The position numbers were made by a program, and so were the translations under genes. A stretch of DNA of 64,000 nt from Thiotrichaceae bacterium (GTDB taxonomy: Bacteria; Pseudomonadota; Gammaproteobacteria; Thiotrichales; Thiotrichaceae). The stretch lies in the NCBI GenBank assembly GCA_026989335.1, contig JALSJN010000018.1:23197-87196 (forward strand), in the 5' to 3' direction. Positions 2-63,670 of the stretch are shown in pieces. How positions within the stretch are numbered: the first letter of the stretch is position 1; each line of letters begins with the position of its first letter. The notes beneath the pieces are model-generated. The model searched no databases. It saw only the letters and a list, made by a program, of their open reading frames with translations, and was not told the origin of the DNA.

Positions 2-442
2 CTCCCTAAAATTCTCGTAACCGTTTGTTTATCCATTCCCTTCATGGCTTCTGCGGGTGAAATTGTAAAAAAAGCCAGTGCTCATAGCGTGAAAGAAACG
101 ATGGATAAGTTTGAAGCATTAGTTAAATCAAAAGGCATGGATGTATTTGCACGCGTTAATCATCAAAAAAATGCACAGGGTGCTGACTTAAAAATGAATG
201 AATCCGAAGTCCTTATTTTTGGAAACCCTAAAGGTGGAACGGTACTCATGAATCAAGATATTGCTGTTTCGCTTGATTTACCATTACGCGTTGCTGTTTA
301 TAAAGATAAAGAGGGTAAAGTTTGGCTAAGTTACCATAGCCCTCAATCATTAAAAGAAAGCTACAACGTTAAAGGTGCAGCTAAAGTTATGGATAAAGTT
401 GAAGGTGCTTTGGATAAGTTAAGTAATATTGTTATAAAATAA
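2..442 (+). CDS. DUF302 domain protein, 5'-truncated by window edge (signal peptide readable upstream of the listed ORF start)
   Basis: Frame is open to the window start (LPKILVTVCLSIPFMASAGEIVKK...), a signal-peptide-like N-terminus followed by a DUF302-like sequence (FGNPKGGTVLMNQDIAVSLDLPLRVAVYKD...VWLSYHSP). Confidence 0.75.
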   Translation, partial: LPKILVTVCLSIPFMASAGEIVKKASAHSVKETMDKFEALVKSKGMDVFARVNHQKNAQGADLKMNESEVLIFGNPKGGTVLMNQDIAVSLDLPLRVAVYKDKEGKVWLSYHSPQSLKESYNVKGAAKVMDKVEGALDKLSNIVIK

Positions 443-51602: not shown

Positions 51603-52067
51603 ATGCAAGAAGATTTAAAAGCCATAGAAGCGTATATCAACAAAGACAAGGTAACTGAATTTTATCAAAAAGGCTTTGCCAAGTATTCTGCGGCAGGGGT
51701 CGATCAATTTGCATGGCACTGGTCGTGGTGGGCAATGTTTGGGGGTATGTTTTATTTACTCTATCGCAAACTCTATATGGAGGCATTGATATTTTTTGTG
51801 TTATTTGCGGTTATTGGGATGATTCCCTTTGCTGGCTTAGTGGCTTGGATAGCATCGGGTGGGGTGTTACCGTATTTGGTTTATAAACGGTATAAAAAAG
51901 TCAAAGCGCAAGTTGAGATGAATTTTGCAGAAGAGGATGAACAGTTCAATGCCTTGCGTGAGGTTGGTGGTTTTAACCAGTGGGCAATATGGCTGGGGGT
52001 CGCTTTACATGTAATGATGTGGGCAGGTATGTTTTATATGCTAACGGTTGTGGGTATGCAAATTTAA
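51603..52067 (+). CDS. DUF2628 domain membrane protein
   Basis: FAWHWSWWAMFGGMFYLLYRKLYMEALIFFVLFAVIG. Confidence 0.7.
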   Translation: MQEDLKAIEAYINKDKVTEFYQKGFAKYSAAGVDQFAWHWSWWAMFGGMFYLLYRKLYMEALIFFVLFAVIGMIPFAGLVAWIASGGVLPYLVYKRYKKVKAQVEMNFAEEDEQFNALREVGGFNQWAIWLGVALHVMMWAGMFYMLTVVGMQI

Positions 52068-53548
52068 GCAGGCCATAGGGCTAATAGCGCTAACGTTGCT
52101 TTTTTATAATTAGGTGCTTCGGTTATTGCTGAAATCATTGCTACAGAGCCAACACCTGTTTTCTTTAACGCCTTAGCTCGATCAAAACTAATCCCGCCAA
52201 TGGCGACTAATGGGTAATTTTCACCAAGTAGTTTAACCCATTGAGCTACCGCATCAACACCTTGAGGTATCCATGGCATAACTTTACTGGTGGTTGCAAA
52301 AATTGGCCCGAGTGCAATGTAACTGGGTTTTATAGTTATCGTCCTAGCGACCTCGGCATAGCTATGGGTCGATAGGCCTAAACGGCAGCCTGCATTTGCT
52401 ATAGCGGTAAGATCAGCTGTGGCAATATCCTCTTGACCTAGATGGATGCCATAAGCACGGTGCTTTATGGCGAGCTGCCAGTAGTCATTAATGAACAAAC
52501 GAACATCATGTTCCCGACAATAACTAATGGCTTCTATAATGTCTGCTTCAACCTCCTGATCGTCTTTGTCTTTGATCCGTAATTGAATGGTTTTGATGCC
52601 AAGTGGAACTAATTTTTTCAACCACTCGATAGAGTCGATAACGGGGTAGATACCTAATGTTTGTGTATCGCAGGGCGTAAAATTTGGATAATTTTCTTGT
52701 GGGTTTAATCGTAGTTGGGGCAGGTGGGTTAAGCTGAAGTTGCTACCTGAACTGTTCTTAGTAAAGCGGAAATGATGACTTTTCTCATCAATATCACAAA
52801 CAACCGCATGTTTTATCCCTTGGCTGGCTAGTGCTTTAGCAAGCACGATAGCATCAATTAAGCTGTGACCTAAAGCTAAATAAGATGCAATCGCAGTGGC
52901 TAGTACACAGCCTGTACCACGCACATTGGTTTTATCAGGCCAGCGGTTGCCGACTAAATAAAAGGTGCTTGATGGGCTAATAAAGGTATCTATACAGGTT
53001 TCTTGTTGATCTGTGTTGTTGGTATGACCGCCTTTGATTAATACAGATTTTATTCCCAGCTCAAAAAGTGTATGAGTGACATCTTGAATCTCTTCAGGGC
53101 TTTGGCAGGGTAGATTACTCAAGCTGGCGATTTCATCTAAGTTCGGTGTTAGTAGCGTCACATAAGGCATTAAGGTAGAAAGCATTAAGCGTTGCCCTGC
53201 ATAGTTTAACAGCTTTCCCCCTGAACTTGCGGCGAGAACTGGGTCGAGGATGACAGGGGTTTTTTCTGCATGCTTTTTAAGGTAATTAGCCACTGCTTTT
53301 ACGACCTGTTCATTGCCTAGCATGCCAATCTTTATAGCAGAAAACGTGCGACCTTTTAGTGCGTCAAATTGTGCTTGTACTTGTGCGTAAGGGAGCACAC
53401 CATCACTTTGTACGCCTGCGTTATTTTGTGCGGTAACCGCTGTAACCACACTGTGCGCAGTGACTTCTAGGGTGTTAGTAACTTTCCAGTCTGTTTGTAG
53501 CCCTGCACCAGATGGGTCGGTACCACCGATTAATAATACTTTACTCAT
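52064..53548 (-). CDS. thiDE: bifunctional hydroxymethylpyrimidine (phospho)kinase / thiamine-phosphate synthase fusion (ThiD-ThiE)
   Basis: N-terminal ThiD (LIGGTDPSGAGLQTDWKV...VILDPVLAASSGGKLL...RGTGCVLATAIASYL); C-terminal ThiE (IKTIQLRIKDKDDQE...LFINDYWQLAIKHRAYGIHLGQEDIA...YIALGPIFATTSK). Confidence 0.92.
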   Translation of the reverse strand: MSKVLLIGGTDPSGAGLQTDWKVTNTLEVTAHSVVTAVTAQNNAGVQSDGVLPYAQVQAQFDALKGRTFSAIKIGMLGNEQVVKAVANYLKKHAEKTPVILDPVLAASSGGKLLNYAGQRLMLSTLMPYVTLLTPNLDEIASLSNLPCQSPEEIQDVTHTLFELGIKSVLIKGGHTNNTDQQETCIDTFISPSSTFYLVGNRWPDKTNVRGTGCVLATAIASYLALGHSLIDAIVLAKALASQGIKHAVVCDIDEKSHHFRFTKNSSGSNFSLTHLPQLRLNPQENYPNFTPCDTQTLGIYPVIDSIEWLKKLVPLGIKTIQLRIKDKDDQEVEADIIEAISYCREHDVRLFINDYWQLAIKHRAYGIHLGQEDIATADLTAIANAGCRLGLSTHSYAEVARTITIKPSYIALGPIFATTSKVMPWIPQGVDAVAQWVKLLGENYPLVAIGGISFDRAKALKKTGVGSVAMISAITEAPNYKKATLALLALWPA

Positions 53549-55621: not shown

Positions 55622-57713
<2,092 letters not shown>

Positions 57714-58317: not shown

Positions 58318-59022
58318 ATGGCTTCTAAAATAGACACTCATAGTAAAAATGGTTCCGCAATCGGCTCAGTACTTTTTGATCTTGATGGTACATTGCTTGA
58401 TACCGCACCTGATATGACAAATGCACTTAATGCATTGTTGAATGAGGAGGGTAAAAAACCACTATCTTATGAAGATTGTAGGGATTATGTCTCACATGGT
58501 TCAATCGCTATGGTAACACTTGGCTTTGGCTCTATGGGGGAAAGCCCACAAGAAAAAGACCAGTTCGAACAACGCCGATTACGCTTCTTGGCTTTATACG
58601 AGAAAAACCTTTGTGTGGATACAAAATTATTTGAGGGCATGGAAGAAACCTTAAGTTTTATTGAGAAACAAGGTATCCCGTGGGGAGTCGTTACGAATAA
58701 GCCAGGCTTTTTGACTGATCCACTGCTGCAACAGCTTGGGCTTGATAAGCGAGCGTGTAGTGTTGTTTCGGGGGATACAATCTCGCAGCGAAAGCCTGAT
58801 CCTGCTCCCTTATATTTAGCCGCTAGCGAGTGTAAAGTTTTGGCCACCGATTGTATTTATGTAGGCGATGCTGAGCGTGATATTGAAGCTGGAAATAGCG
58901 CTAATATGCGAACATTAATTGCCAGCTATGGTTATATTGATGGGGAGCAAAAACCTGCAAAGTGGGGGGCAAACGGTGTGATTGAGCATCCTTCGGATAT
59001 TATTGAGTGGCTCTATTTCTAA
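58318..59022 (+). CDS. gph: phosphoglycolate phosphatase-like HAD-IA hydrolase
   Basis: VLFDLDGTLLDTAPDMTNALNALLNEEGKKPLSYEDCRDYVSHGS...VVTNKPGFLTDPLL...YVGDAERDIEAGNSANMRT. Confidence 0.88.
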   Translation: MASKIDTHSKNGSAIGSVLFDLDGTLLDTAPDMTNALNALLNEEGKKPLSYEDCRDYVSHGSIAMVTLGFGSMGESPQEKDQFEQRRLRFLALYEKNLCVDTKLFEGMEETLSFIEKQGIPWGVVTNKPGFLTDPLLQQLGLDKRACSVVSGDTISQRKPDPAPLYLAASECKVLATDCIYVGDAERDIEAGNSANMRTLIASYGYIDGEQKPAKWGANGVIEHPSDIIEWLYF

Positions 59023-59216: not shown

Positions 59217-60275
59217 GTGAGTATTAATAAAAGTAGTGCTAATCGTACATTAATACAAATAGTGGTTTTTTTAGTGCTAGCTGCTGGTCTGCTGTTTTAT
59301 AAGAGATCAGCCATCGCAAGTTTGATGACATCAGGTAGTATTAGTAATATCGGGTTGATAATAAACGGTATTATAATTCTATTGTTTCTTGCGGGAATGT
59401 TAAGAATAGTGATGGTTCTTTTTCGCTATATTGATGAGCATCATGCGGTGGTTAAAGCGGTAAAAAGCTTGAAAAAAAACCAGCTTAATCCCTTTGAAAG
59501 TATATCTGCTAACTATCTAATATCACAACGTTATAAAAAAATAGGCTGGATTAGTAAACAAGGCGCGCCTATCAATCAAGCTGCCTTGGCATCGGGGATA
59601 AATGCGGCTGAAAGCACCCGCTTAACCTTTATCCGATTTGTTCATAGTACGCTGATTTTGGCCGGTGTTTTTGGTACGGTGGTCTCTCTTTCTATGGCTT
59701 TAGTTGGGGTCTCTGGTTTACTCAATTCGCCTGAAGGTGTGAAAGAGATGGGCACGATTATAAGCAGTATGTCTTCTGCCTTAAGCTCTACAGTTGCTGC
59801 TATTGTTTGTTTTTTCATATTTGCCTATTTTTATTTGAGACTCAATGATTCCCGTGTACAACTCTTGAATGATATAGAAGAGGTCACCAGTCTTTATATC
59901 TTACCAAAGTTTTCACAAACTGAAGAAGGTTTGGTCTCTCAAGTATCAGAACTCACTGCATCATTAAATCTTGCAACGGAGCGTTTGCTCACCGTGCAAA
60001 ACTCATTTAATCAAGCGGGGCTGTCTTTACAAGCAGCGGTTGATGACTTGCAGTCACAAGTGCAGGGTAGTAGTCTAAATGAAATTAAAAGCCTATTACG
60101 CAAAGGCTTTCATTTATCCGAACCTGTTTATGAGGGTGAAAAAAGTGCGATGGCTAATCAACAACAAGTTGATTCTGTTAATAGTAATGATCAATCCGTA
60201 TCATTAGCTAATCCAGAAAATGACCTAATGACCACCGATAAGAATCTAGCTGATAAGGCGAGTACGCTACGATGA
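59217..60275 (+). CDS. MotA/TolQ/ExbB proton-channel family protein
   Basis: About four hydrophobic segments; FVHSTLILAGVFGTVVSLSMALVGVSGLL...MSSALSSTVAAIVCFFIFAYFYLRL is the MotA/ExbB channel signature; GTG start behind a GGGGATAA Shine-Dalgarno-like sequence. Confidence 0.85.
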   Translation: MSINKSSANRTLIQIVVFLVLAAGLLFYKRSAIASLMTSGSISNIGLIINGIIILLFLAGMLRIVMVLFRYIDEHHAVVKAVKSLKKNQLNPFESISANYLISQRYKKIGWISKQGAPINQAALASGINAAESTRLTFIRFVHSTLILAGVFGTVVSLSMALVGVSGLLNSPEGVKEMGTIISSMSSALSSTVAAIVCFFIFAYFYLRLNDSRVQLLNDIEEVTSLYILPKFSQTEEGLVSQVSELTASLNLATERLLTVQNSFNQAGLSLQAAVDDLQSQVQGSSLNEIKSLLRKGFHLSEPVYEGEKSAMANQQQVDSVNSNDQSVSLANPENDLMTTDKNLADKASTLR

Positions 60276-61864
60276 GGTTTGGTTTTCCAGGGGATAATTT
60301 ACACCTTGAAAATCACGGTGTGAGTGAAGAAAGTTTTTGGCCATCATTTACCGATATTATGATGGTAATTGTGATGGTTTTTTTATTGGTCACTGTCACC
60401 GTTTTACTCAATAACTGGACTTTAATTACAGATTTAAAACAAAGTGTTAAAGAGCAAAAAGAAGCAGCCTCCTTAGCGAAAGCTAAACAACAAGAAAATA
60501 AAAACTTAGCTTCAAACCTTACTCAACTAAAACAGCAGTTTGTATCGGTTAAACAAGATAAGAAAAGTAAAGAACAACAATTATCCCAAACACTAACCAT
60601 GCTAGCTACAACTCAAGCGAATCTTACTGTACTTAATAAAAATTTACAGAAAAGTGAAACAGAAAGAAAACAACAAGTTAAGGCCATTAATTCATTACAA
60701 GCGACAATAAGCGCTCAAGAAAAATCATTAGCGGCAGCCAAAGAATTATCCGATAAGCTAATGTCTAATTTGTCACTTGTAAATGCTAAAAAAGATGAGC
60801 AAGCACTTGATGGAGAACGCTTACGCGGTACTTTAGCTAAGTGGATGGCTGAAGGAAAAGTGTTGGCAGAGGCTTTGGGTGAAAAAGAAACAGAATTAGC
60901 ACAGTCACAAGAAGAACAAGCACAGTTATCAGAAAAGCTTGCTGAGCTCGCTAGTGAGAGTAAGGCGCAGCGATTAAAATTAGCACGCTTAGAAAAATCA
61001 GCCAGCGAATATAAAATAAAATTTAAGAGCTTACAAGATAGTCAAGGAGTAGAGTCAAATGAACTTGTAACATTAAGAAAAGAGCATGAAGAGTTAATGC
61101 TAGATTTGGAGATAACACTGAAAGAAAAAGAAAAACAAAGTGCCTATGTCTCAACCCTTAAAAAGAGTAAGGCGGAGTTAAAGAAAATATTAACCCTATT
61201 ACAAACGGAACGTAGTAGCTTATCTGAGAAAGTCTTACAACTTGAAAACCAGCTTAGTAGCGTTGATGAAAATAATAATGAGGCTAAAAAAGCCAAAAGT
61301 TCTAATGATGAAAAACTAAAGAAATTGCTGGCTACTATAAATACGCAAACAAGCCATATTAAAGCCTTAGAAAAGGAAAACAAAAACTTATCGGGAGATA
61401 TTACAGAGAAACTAACCGCAACAGAACAACAACTTGAGGAAATAAAAATACAGCTTGAGGTGAAGGATGAAGCGATAACGGTATTACAAAAGGACCATGA
61501 AGAGCGAGAAACGCAACTGCTAAGCTTGCAGGGTGAATATGATACGCTTGATACAAAGTATCAAAAATTACTACGCCCAGCGCGTTCATCAAAAGGTAAA
61601 TATGTTGTTTCTGTACTTTACAAAAAGTCGGGTAAAAAACGCATTATACGCCTTAAAACTAATCTCAATGGGCGTTATAAAACGGTTAGTAAGGCAACGC
61701 TACATAAGGAGTTGAAAAAATTAAAAGCTGAGCATAAAAATGACTTATACCTTAAGATTATCATTCCGAGTAATAGTGGTTTATTACATAATGAAGCATG
61801 GAAATTTACCTCTAGTTTGCAAAGGCAGTACGACTATTATTCGCAGTCAGATAACTCTAAATAA
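60272..61864 (+). CDS. MotB/ExbD-like partner with one N-terminal TM, ~370-aa coiled coil and ExbD-like C-terminal domain
   Basis: SFWPSFTDIMMVIVMVFLLVTVTVLL has an Asp at the start of the TM as in MotB/ExbD/ZorB; long heptad-rich K/E/Q/L region; C-terminal KYVVSVLYKKSGKKRIIRLKTNLNGRYKTVSKATLHKELKKLKAEHKNDLYLKIIIPSNSGLLHNEAWKFTSSLQRQY. 4-nt overlap (ATGA) with the preceding gene. Confidence 0.7.
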   Translation: MRFGFPGDNLHLENHGVSEESFWPSFTDIMMVIVMVFLLVTVTVLLNNWTLITDLKQSVKEQKEAASLAKAKQQENKNLASNLTQLKQQFVSVKQDKKSKEQQLSQTLTMLATTQANLTVLNKNLQKSETERKQQVKAINSLQATISAQEKSLAAAKELSDKLMSNLSLVNAKKDEQALDGERLRGTLAKWMAEGKVLAEALGEKETELAQSQEEQAQLSEKLAELASESKAQRLKLARLEKSASEYKIKFKSLQDSQGVESNELVTLRKEHEELMLDLEITLKEKEKQSAYVSTLKKSKAELKKILTLLQTERSSLSEKVLQLENQLSSVDENNNEAKKAKSSNDEKLKKLLATINTQTSHIKALEKENKNLSGDITEKLTATEQQLEEIKIQLEVKDEAITVLQKDHEERETQLLSLQGEYDTLDTKYQKLLRPARSSKGKYVVSVLYKKSGKKRIIRLKTNLNGRYKTVSKATLHKELKKLKAEHKNDLYLKIIIPSNSGLLHNEAWKFTSSLQRQYDYYSQSDNSK

Positions 61865-61915: not shown

Positions 61916-62767
61916 ATGACACAACTCAAACTAGCTGCCTCACCTGAAATTATGGGAATCTTAAATGTTACACCTGATAGTTTCTCTGACGGAGGGAATT
62001 ACTCTAACCCTGAGCGAGCAGTTCAACGTGCGCTTGAAATGGTTGAACAAGGTGCGACCATCATTGATATAGGCGGTGAATCAACGCGACCAGGGGCTGA
62101 GAGCATTTCCGTTAGTGAGCAATTAGAGCGCGTAATTCCCGTGATTGAAGGAATACGACAATCATCAATAAAAGACGTTCTTATCAGTGTTGATACTACG
62201 CGTTCTGAAGTTGCTAAATCTGCGTTAGAGGCAGGTGCGAGTTGGTTGAATGATGTCTCTGCAGGTGATGACTCTAGAATTAAAGGCTCAGAAAAAGAAC
62301 CAATGTTACTTTTGGCAGCAAAACATAGCTGCCCAATCGTTTTAATGCATCGACAAGGTGAATCTGCAGTCATGCAAGATAAGCCACACTATGATGATGT
62401 TTGTGTTGAGGTTAGTGACTACCTAGTGAAAAGAGCGCAAGCTGCGCTAGATGCTGGGGTTCCTAAAGATAATATTATAGTTGACCCCGGTATTGGCTTT
62501 GGTAAATTACTTTCACATAATCTACAGTTATTAGCGGGTTTAGAGTCGCTGGTAAGCCTTGATTATAAGGTCTTGCTGGGAACCAGTCAAAAACGTTTTT
62601 TAGGGGAGATTACGGGCATAGAAAATCCACAGCAAAGGGTGGTAGCAACATGCGCAACTACAGCATTAGGTGTGAAAGCAGGTGTCGCTATTTTTAGAGT
62701 GCACGATGTGCATGAAAATAAGCAGGCTTTGGATGTCGCTTGGCAAATTAAACAGGTTAAAAATTGA
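61916..62767 (+). CDS. folP: dihydropteroate synthase
   Basis: IMGILNVTPDSFSDGGNYSNPERAVQRALEMVEQGATIIDIGGESTRPGAESIS...VDPGIGFGKLLSHNLQLL. Confidence 0.97.
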   Translation: MTQLKLAASPEIMGILNVTPDSFSDGGNYSNPERAVQRALEMVEQGATIIDIGGESTRPGAESISVSEQLERVIPVIEGIRQSSIKDVLISVDTTRSEVAKSALEAGASWLNDVSAGDDSRIKGSEKEPMLLLAAKHSCPIVLMHRQGESAVMQDKPHYDDVCVEVSDYLVKRAQAALDAGVPKDNIIVDPGIGFGKLLSHNLQLLAGLESLVSLDYKVLLGTSQKRFLGEITGIENPQQRVVATCATTALGVKAGVAIFRVHDVHENKQALDVAWQIKQVKN

Positions 62768-62839: not shown

Positions 62840-63670
62840 TTACTTCTCAATACCACCATCCATTTCATCTTGCCATTTTTTAAGCTCGTCCCACTTATCG
62901 GTGGCTGCAAGTTTTGCTTGCTTAGGCCAAGTACCTGGATCCATTGCAGCAAACTTTCCTTCTGACTCATCAAGAATTTTCTTGATTTTGGTTGGTGTTG
63001 ATTTTGATACATCAGCAAACGTGACTAAGCCAGCTGCAGTGAGTGCCTCGGCAGCTTTAGGGCCGACACCTTCGATTTTAGTTAAATCATCGTTAGCACT
63101 CGATTTTTTAGGTACTGCTTTCTTCGCGGCAGGCTTTTTCTCTGTTGCTGACTTAGTAGCCGCTTTTTTTGCAGTTGGCTTAGTCTCTGCTTTTTTCTCT
63201 GTAGCCTTTACTTTGGGTGCTGCTTTCTTCGCAACTGACTTTTTAGCAGCAGGTTTAGCTGATTTTTTAGCGGTAGACTTTGCTGTAGCTTCGCTAGCTG
63301 CTTTAGCTTCGGCGAGTGCTTCTTCAGTCTTAGGTGCCATTACGTTTTCAGGCTTGCCTTTACCATTAATATTTTGGATTTGAACTTGTGTAAAGTTCTG
63401 GCGGTGACCCGTGCGCTTTTGGTGGTGCTTACGACGTTTGAACTTGATGATCTCAACTTTCTTGGCACGACCATGTGCAATAACAGTTGCTGCAACTTTA
63501 GCACTAGCTACAAGCGGTGAACCTGCAGTGATTTTATCGCCATCAGAAACCATCAAGACTTCTTCAAAGTTTACAGATGCGCCAACGTCGGCGTTAAGTG
63601 TTTCTACCTTTAATACATCACCAGGTGAAACACGGTATTGTTTGCCACCTGTTTTAATTACTGCGTACAT
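62840..63670 (-). CDS. rplU: 50S ribosomal protein L21 with C-terminal Lys/Ala-rich linker and helix-hairpin-helix-like domain
   Basis: N-terminus [25 protein letters not shown]...[23 protein letters not shown] is L21; followed by repetitive [20 protein letters not shown] linker and [38 protein letters not shown]. Confidence 0.93.

Follow-up and report, generated by a model that had tools for sequence, protein, structure and literature searches.

A two-gene channel and coiled-coil pair from Thiotrichaceae, probably an ion-driven motor, with a shaft that varies in length mostly by whole heptads

The 64,000-nucleotide stretch of DNA analysed here (the window) contains two overlapping genes, referred to as A and B, whose features are collected in Table 1. 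The first-pass annotation had described two translationally coupled open reading frames between gph and folP, and the frames, their ATGA junction and both flanking genes were all confirmed in the window. Elsewhere, the minus strand encodes a 276-aa protein that resembles ribosomal protein L21 and carries a long extension rich in Lys and Ala together with a helix-hairpin-helix-like C-terminal segment (62840-63670), as well as an apparent ThiD-ThiE fusion of 494 aa (52064-53548) within a thiamine gene cluster that also includes thiC (55622-57523).

Table 1. Features of the A/B locus, in window coordinates unless residues are specified.
Feature	Position	Strand	Description
gph	58318-59022		upstream of the A/B pair
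Gene A	59217..60275	+	352 aa, GTG start; MotA/TolQ/ExbB-fold channel subunit
Membrane helices of A	residues ~6-28, 44-70, 140-170, 174-208		four helices, predicted (AlphaFold)
Thr154 of A (GVFGTV, helix 3)	59676..59678	+	invariant in 41 relatives; aligned in TolQ/ExbB with the Thr of GLFGTV
Thr192 of A (ALSST, helix 4)	59790..59792	+	invariant; aligned with the ALIATA Thr of TolQ/ExbB
Gene B	60272..61864	+	530 aa; single-TM partner with long coiled coil; ATGA overlap with A
FWPSFTD motif and transmembrane helix of B	60335..60412	+	by profile alignment to ZorB/ExbD
Asp28 of B	60353-60355	+	counterpart, by alignment, of the ion-site Asp in ZorB and ExbD
Coiled-coil shaft of B	60419..61576	+	residues 50-435 (386 residues); 0 Pro, 7 Gly; ~57 nm if continuous
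C-terminal domain of B, PAR motif to YDYY	61577..61840	+	~88 residues, highly conserved
folP	61916-62767		downstream of the A/B pair

Subunit A is a remote member of the MotA/TolQ/ExbB channel fold that has kept both channel threonines. The Pfam MotA_ExbB model (PF01618) scores 22.5 bits on the window protein, marginally below its cut-off of 22.9, and it matches 39 of 41 family members (E<0.01); together with the Foldseek results, this upholds the channel signature originally read in the first gene. The AlphaFold model of A is all-helical and free of strands (mean pLDDT 82). A cytosolic loop joins helix 2 to helix 3, the C-terminal helix is long and ends in a conserved LRxGF(R/H)L motif, and the protein measures ~305-350 aa across the family. 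The best 50 Foldseek matches of this model are almost exclusively ExbB, TolQ, PomA and ZorA (probability near 1, E 0.009-0.3), and as many as 20 of the 41 A proteins are matched by ZorA models. When 143 genomes were searched for the ZorA family, no match was returned, the controls being unmatched too. Matches of the A profile to the coronavirus spike and other coiled-coil PDB entries fall on the tail helix only and were discarded as coil artefacts. The source genome also has separate ExbD/TolR-type genes, and a different pair, formed by a small MotA-like gene (227 aa) and a 233-aa single-TM partner, adjoins an rsmI-like gene at another locus of the same genome (L028, G000:C22, ~74528-77821).

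The short N-terminus of B precedes a transmembrane helix whose sequence, FWPSFTDIMMVIVMxFL, is near-invariant among B proteins. An hmmsearch with a 44-residue profile of this helix retrieved the solved ZorB chains 8vvi (3.7e-5), 8vvn (2.9e-4) and 8qyd (1.3e-3), with the Asp of B aligned on the Asp of each, and also an ExbD peptide, which was matched weakly. PADLOC ZorB models match all 38 B N-termini searched; the window protein has no credible Pfam domain, and its N-terminus is weakly similar to the ZorB models. The pair had been likened to ExbB and ExbD, and this holds for the channel fold, but among named families ZorA and ZorB are nearest to the membrane part. The membrane Asp is kept in 104 of the 108 B proteins of a first set and in 53/53 of a further set, as expected for the single-TM partner with an Asp at its helix start that had been proposed. 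The other four carry Asn and derive from three Thiothrix genomes, of which one is represented twice (L060/L051, L061, L062), so a carboxylate at the membrane site is not universal. In these B proteins the Met located seven residues further is replaced by Lys, and in the same genomes A gains an Asp before helix 4 (MGTIIGGMS to MWDIIGGMS); with both reading frames intact, the substitutions amount to a natural, coordinated charge exchange.

The charges that flank the helix (mean -2.1 before the Asp, -0.4 after the helix) leave the sidedness of B undecided, and it is homology with ZorB, MotB and ExbD that suggests that the coil points outward. Were B inserted in reverse, its coil and C-terminal domain would be cytoplasmic. 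The acidic segment before the helix and the slightly less acidic one after it fit this arrangement, in that they do not by themselves predict a cytosolic N-terminus, but the N-terminus of ExbD is acidic too. The Asp-bearing helix is directly homologous to those of ZorB and ExbD, whose N-termini are cytosolic, and 146 of 155 B proteins are devoid of cysteine, as is common for periplasmic proteins; we consequently regard reversed insertion as very unlikely.

Among 58 related genomes, 35 encode a relative of A; in its own family the count is 32 of 37. A scan of genome contigs with a B alignment produced 372 relatives, the best 80 of which define 79 loci with titles that name Thiothrix, Leucothrix, Cocleimonas, Thiofilum, Thiolinea, Sedimenticola, Thiodiazotropha and other Gammaproteobacteria, along with some metagenome-assembled genomes titled Zetaproteobacteria, Desulfuromonadales and others; A lies directly before B in every one of these 79 loci. 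In random samples, a profile of the B C-terminal domain matched 45 of the 274 genomes drawn from the Gammaproteobacteria and 30 of the 299 drawn from the phylum, nearly always with a single match per genome and with no intermediate scores, and in one family outside the class its presence is patchy (20/61 genomes). Homologous A/B pairs recur in dozens of families, far above chance, and the two genes adjoin in 140 of 147 loci overall. B stands clearly alone in four genomes of one genus outside the Gammaproteobacteria (L257, L260, L261 and L266, in G340, G500, G346 and G530), all four of which encode A elsewhere. Searches of plasmids with B and of phages with A gave no match, and the family is vertical, single-copy and chromosomal.

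Across the 147 loci no neighbour is generally conserved, the recurring contexts being local ones with rmuC, thiC or gph. In much of the Thiotrichaceae, rmuC, which encodes a membrane-anchored nuclease-like recombination protein of 430-440 aa, directly precedes A (L040-L042, L046, L047, L051-L055, L057 and 15 of the loci L058-L136), and thiC does so in several other loci. RmuC was considered as a conserved third component and set aside, its adjacency being limited to 15 Thiotrichaceae loci of 79 surveyed. The lack of a general neighbour leaves A plus B as the unit, consistent with the stand-alone two-gene unit suggested at the outset.

The C-terminal domain of B carries the signature LYVKIIIPxxSGLSYNEAWxFTxxxLxKYDYY and has the predicted order beta-beta-(beta)-alpha-beta-alpha (pLDDT 77). 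This strand-helix order resembles that of ExbD/TolR, and an ExbD/TolR-like domain had been suspected, but the matches of sequence and fold are not significant: hhalign against ExbD/TolR found no match, the best Foldseek hit has E 0.09 with ExbD/TolR absent among the best 50, and Pfam ExbD touches only 5 of 58 B members (best E 0.003). An OmpA identity was also considered and rejected, as Pfam, hhalign, a PDB profile and Foldseek gave nothing significant; the Pfam result in particular agrees with the earlier statement that B has no OmpA-like peptidoglycan-binding domain. Foldseek matches to ribosomal proteins and RNase-H-like folds (E 0.09 or worse) were attributed to chance, and those to an acyl-CoA thioesterase (E 0.3) and to Pfam SHP, SH2 and Pax2 to composition. 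We therefore treat the segment as a putative new domain.

These properties bear on whether A and B could be a Zorya-type anti-phage system stripped of its other genes. ZorA and ZorB are indeed the nearest named families of the membrane parts, but B has no ZorB-type OmpA-like domain, the model of A has no counterpart of the beta-rich cytosolic domain found in Zorya A proteins (PMC12505986), and effector neighbours are not conserved. A single-copy pair that is nearly fixed in its own family (32/37 genomes) and absent from the searched phages and plasmids also departs from what such a remnant would predict, and we judge this origin highly improbable.

Between the membrane helix and the C-terminal domain, the coil of the window protein displays a sharp 3.5-residue hydrophobic period that was matched by 0 of 1000 shuffles, and not one proline occurs in 155 unique B coils. 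Its length is exceptional in part: a giant coil had been reported, and the description fits the window protein and some lineages, but not the family as a whole, in which most relatives have coils of 144-235 residues. That the long coil resides on the B-type partner rather than on A was borne out. Measured from the membrane Asp to the PAR motif, the spacing ranges from 166 to 488 residues over the 155 B proteins, and its values modulo 7 fall into classes of 119, 27, 5, 1, 1, 1 and 1 members. The classes rank by the number of four-residue stutters that they imply (0, 1, 2 and so on), such that the class of 27 is one stutter off the main class; the window protein, with a spacing of 408, also lies one stutter off. 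The pattern was first met in 96 proteins, after which a prediction was recorded and 68 further loci were fetched. This prospective set comprised 53 anchored proteins that share <90% identity with the first set; the main class took 44 of them and the one-stutter class seven (51/53 in the predicted classes). After re-anchoring, L223, which was one of the two exceptions and had a misplaced anchor, and six of the seven proteins that first had no anchor also fell within the two main classes.

Phylogenetic contrasts were obtained by greedy pairing on a single FastTree tree built from A. Of 49 contrasts with a length difference, 34 are multiples of seven (p 3e-18, a value that is only indicative given the greedy pairing and the single tree) and 12 fall in the stutter class. 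Odd multiples of seven account for 23 of the 34, and seven itself is the commonest single step. As controls, the length of the B N-terminus before the Asp is scattered across all modulo-7 classes, and the C-terminal helix of A is unquantised (5 of 32 non-modal lengths). Self-BLAST detected no internal duplication within the coil. The rod has grown up to threefold, almost only by whole seven-residue turns. Were membrane and tip separated by a freely variable loop or hinge, this would soak up insertions and deletions other than multiples of seven, and a hairpin would need paired heptads, i.e. steps of 14. Single-heptad steps, fixed ends and the absence of proline consequently favour a coil that very probably forms one continuous parallel rod, neither folded back nor jointed, and they contradict two of the options named at the outset for so long a coil, folding back and segmentation.

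Computed at 0.1485 nm per residue, and with the coil taken as continuous, the rod measures ~21-35 nm in most relatives, or about one periplasm depth, and ~57 nm in the window species. Shafts of at least 299 residues arose in several separate families. A 57-nm rod is too long to stand upright in an ordinary periplasm, so the overlong versions would lie obliquely, occupy a wider envelope or pass beyond the outer membrane. As the coil lengthens in whole heptads, it probably acts as a stiff shaft that reaches away from the inner membrane; heptad quantisation alone is evidence of a continuous coil, not of torque passing through it.

Among named systems, ZorAB is closest to the pair in both membrane parts, and it shares with the pair the gene order A before B. 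The Zorya complex has a 5:2 stoichiometry (PMC11890865), but there the long rod is formed by the pentameric tail of ZorA in the cytosol, whereas here the rod is on B. ZorB ends in a presumed peptidoglycan-binding (OmpA-like) domain in place of the apparently new domain of B, ZorA has a long cytosolic tail and beta-strands in its cytosolic domain, whereas A is shorter and its model free of strands, and ZorAB is linked to ZorC/ZorD or ZorE effectors, whereas the A/B loci are free of these and lie outside defence islands. MotAB and PomAB share the channel fold, in which a large cytosolic loop links membrane helix 2 to helix 3, and they also have an Asp at the helix start of the partner subunit; PomA is among the Foldseek matches of A; unlike these stators, B has a long uninterrupted coil and neither an OmpA-like peptidoglycan-binding domain nor a recognisable plug, and flagellar genes do not lie beside A/B. 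ExbBD and TolQR have in common with the pair both channel threonines and the channel fold, in which they provide the best Foldseek matches of A, but ExbD and TolR are proteins of ~140 aa that have no long coil and no significant match to the B C-terminal domain. GldLM is comparable in concept, as its inner subunit bears a dimeric periplasmic shaft that is long and stiff. The ~18 nm GldM shaft (PMC9389320) is however a chain of four beta-rich domains, confined to Bacteroidetes, whereas B has one coil of ~22-70 nm and a small domain, and T9SS genes were not recognised beside A/B. Coil length also evolves by whole heptads in chemoreceptors (PMC6628036); their coils are hairpins in which heptads are paired, whereas single-heptad steps dominate in B, which belongs to an ion-channel protein pair.

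Taken together, the channel fold of A with its two threonines, the Asp-bearing helix of B, the co-occurrence of the genes even where they are unlinked and the proline-free, heptad-phased coil suggest that A and B are probably a 5:2-class motor driven by ions, in which the coil of B would serve as a rigid rod to the C-terminal domain. By analogy with the characterised systems, several copies of A (presumably five) would ring a B dimer within the inner membrane. The dimer would be parallel, its coil forming a single stiff rod that links the membrane helix with the C-terminal domain and spans ~22-28 nm in most species, and ion flow at Asp28 would turn the dimer against the A ring, or turn A around an anchored B. 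Through the rod, torque or force would reach the C-terminal domain, and this domain may hold or move a partner in the peptidoglycan, the outer membrane or the outer envelope. We infer the 5:2 arrangement, the ion-driven relative rotation, the outward orientation and the delivery of force at the C-terminal domain from these relationships. On the best reading, the base of the motor is like that of ZorAB and MotAB and its output end is new.

The same components could work the other way around, with B as a MotAB-like anchor: its C-terminal domain would be held on the cell wall or outer membrane, the coil would be a passive strut, and the A ring would turn a cytosolic load through its LRxGFRL tail. 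The length and conservation of the C-terminal helix and motif of A are in keeping with this arrangement, and Zorya provides a precedent, its A tail being the working part and the C-terminus of its B subunit a presumed peptidoglycan binder (PMC11890865). A strut, however, has no need to stay in heptad phase along its whole length (a continuous coil would keep phase anyway), and a peptidoglycan-binding domain is unrecognisable on B. We consider the anchor arrangement rather unlikely. Alternatively, the pair may be a regulated ion channel or signalling device, in which the coil relays helix phase so as to open or sense the channel in a chemoreceptor-like manner; chemoreceptors are themselves signalling coils with heptad-quantised, albeit paired-heptad, lengths (PMC6628036). 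The rod is intact in the three Thiothrix proteins that lack the Asp, as such a device would allow, but the pair carries no signalling domain such as a kinase or cyclase. To our knowledge, every characterised member of the channel fold that has an Asp-bearing partner energises mechanical work, and a signalling role seems distinctly improbable.

We found no paper that names the A/B pair in the open-licence PMC literature. As far as that literature was searched, the motor base is known (5:2 class, nearest ZorAB), and the architecture and the behaviour of the shaft are new. More tentatively, and with a good measure of doubt, the ion-driven motor could represent an undescribed class: an envelope-spanning rotary machine with one torsionally stiff coiled-coil drive shaft, which would keep heptad phase from the ion-binding helix to the tip, would have been lengthened independently in several lineages to ~70 nm, and would pass rotation across or along the envelope to an outer partner.

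The pair probably adds a family of machines driven by the proton-motive force that is widespread in sulphur-oxidising Gammaproteobacteria and other Pseudomonadota, and that current Pfam, NCBIfam and PADLOC models cover weakly and on the membrane parts only. With its ends fixed and its heptad phase kept, the shaft comes in some 40 lengths, which constitute a natural length-and-phase experiment on a two-gene, single-copy system, and this series bears on possible rotation of the inner subunit in 5:2 motors and on how torque leaves the membrane.
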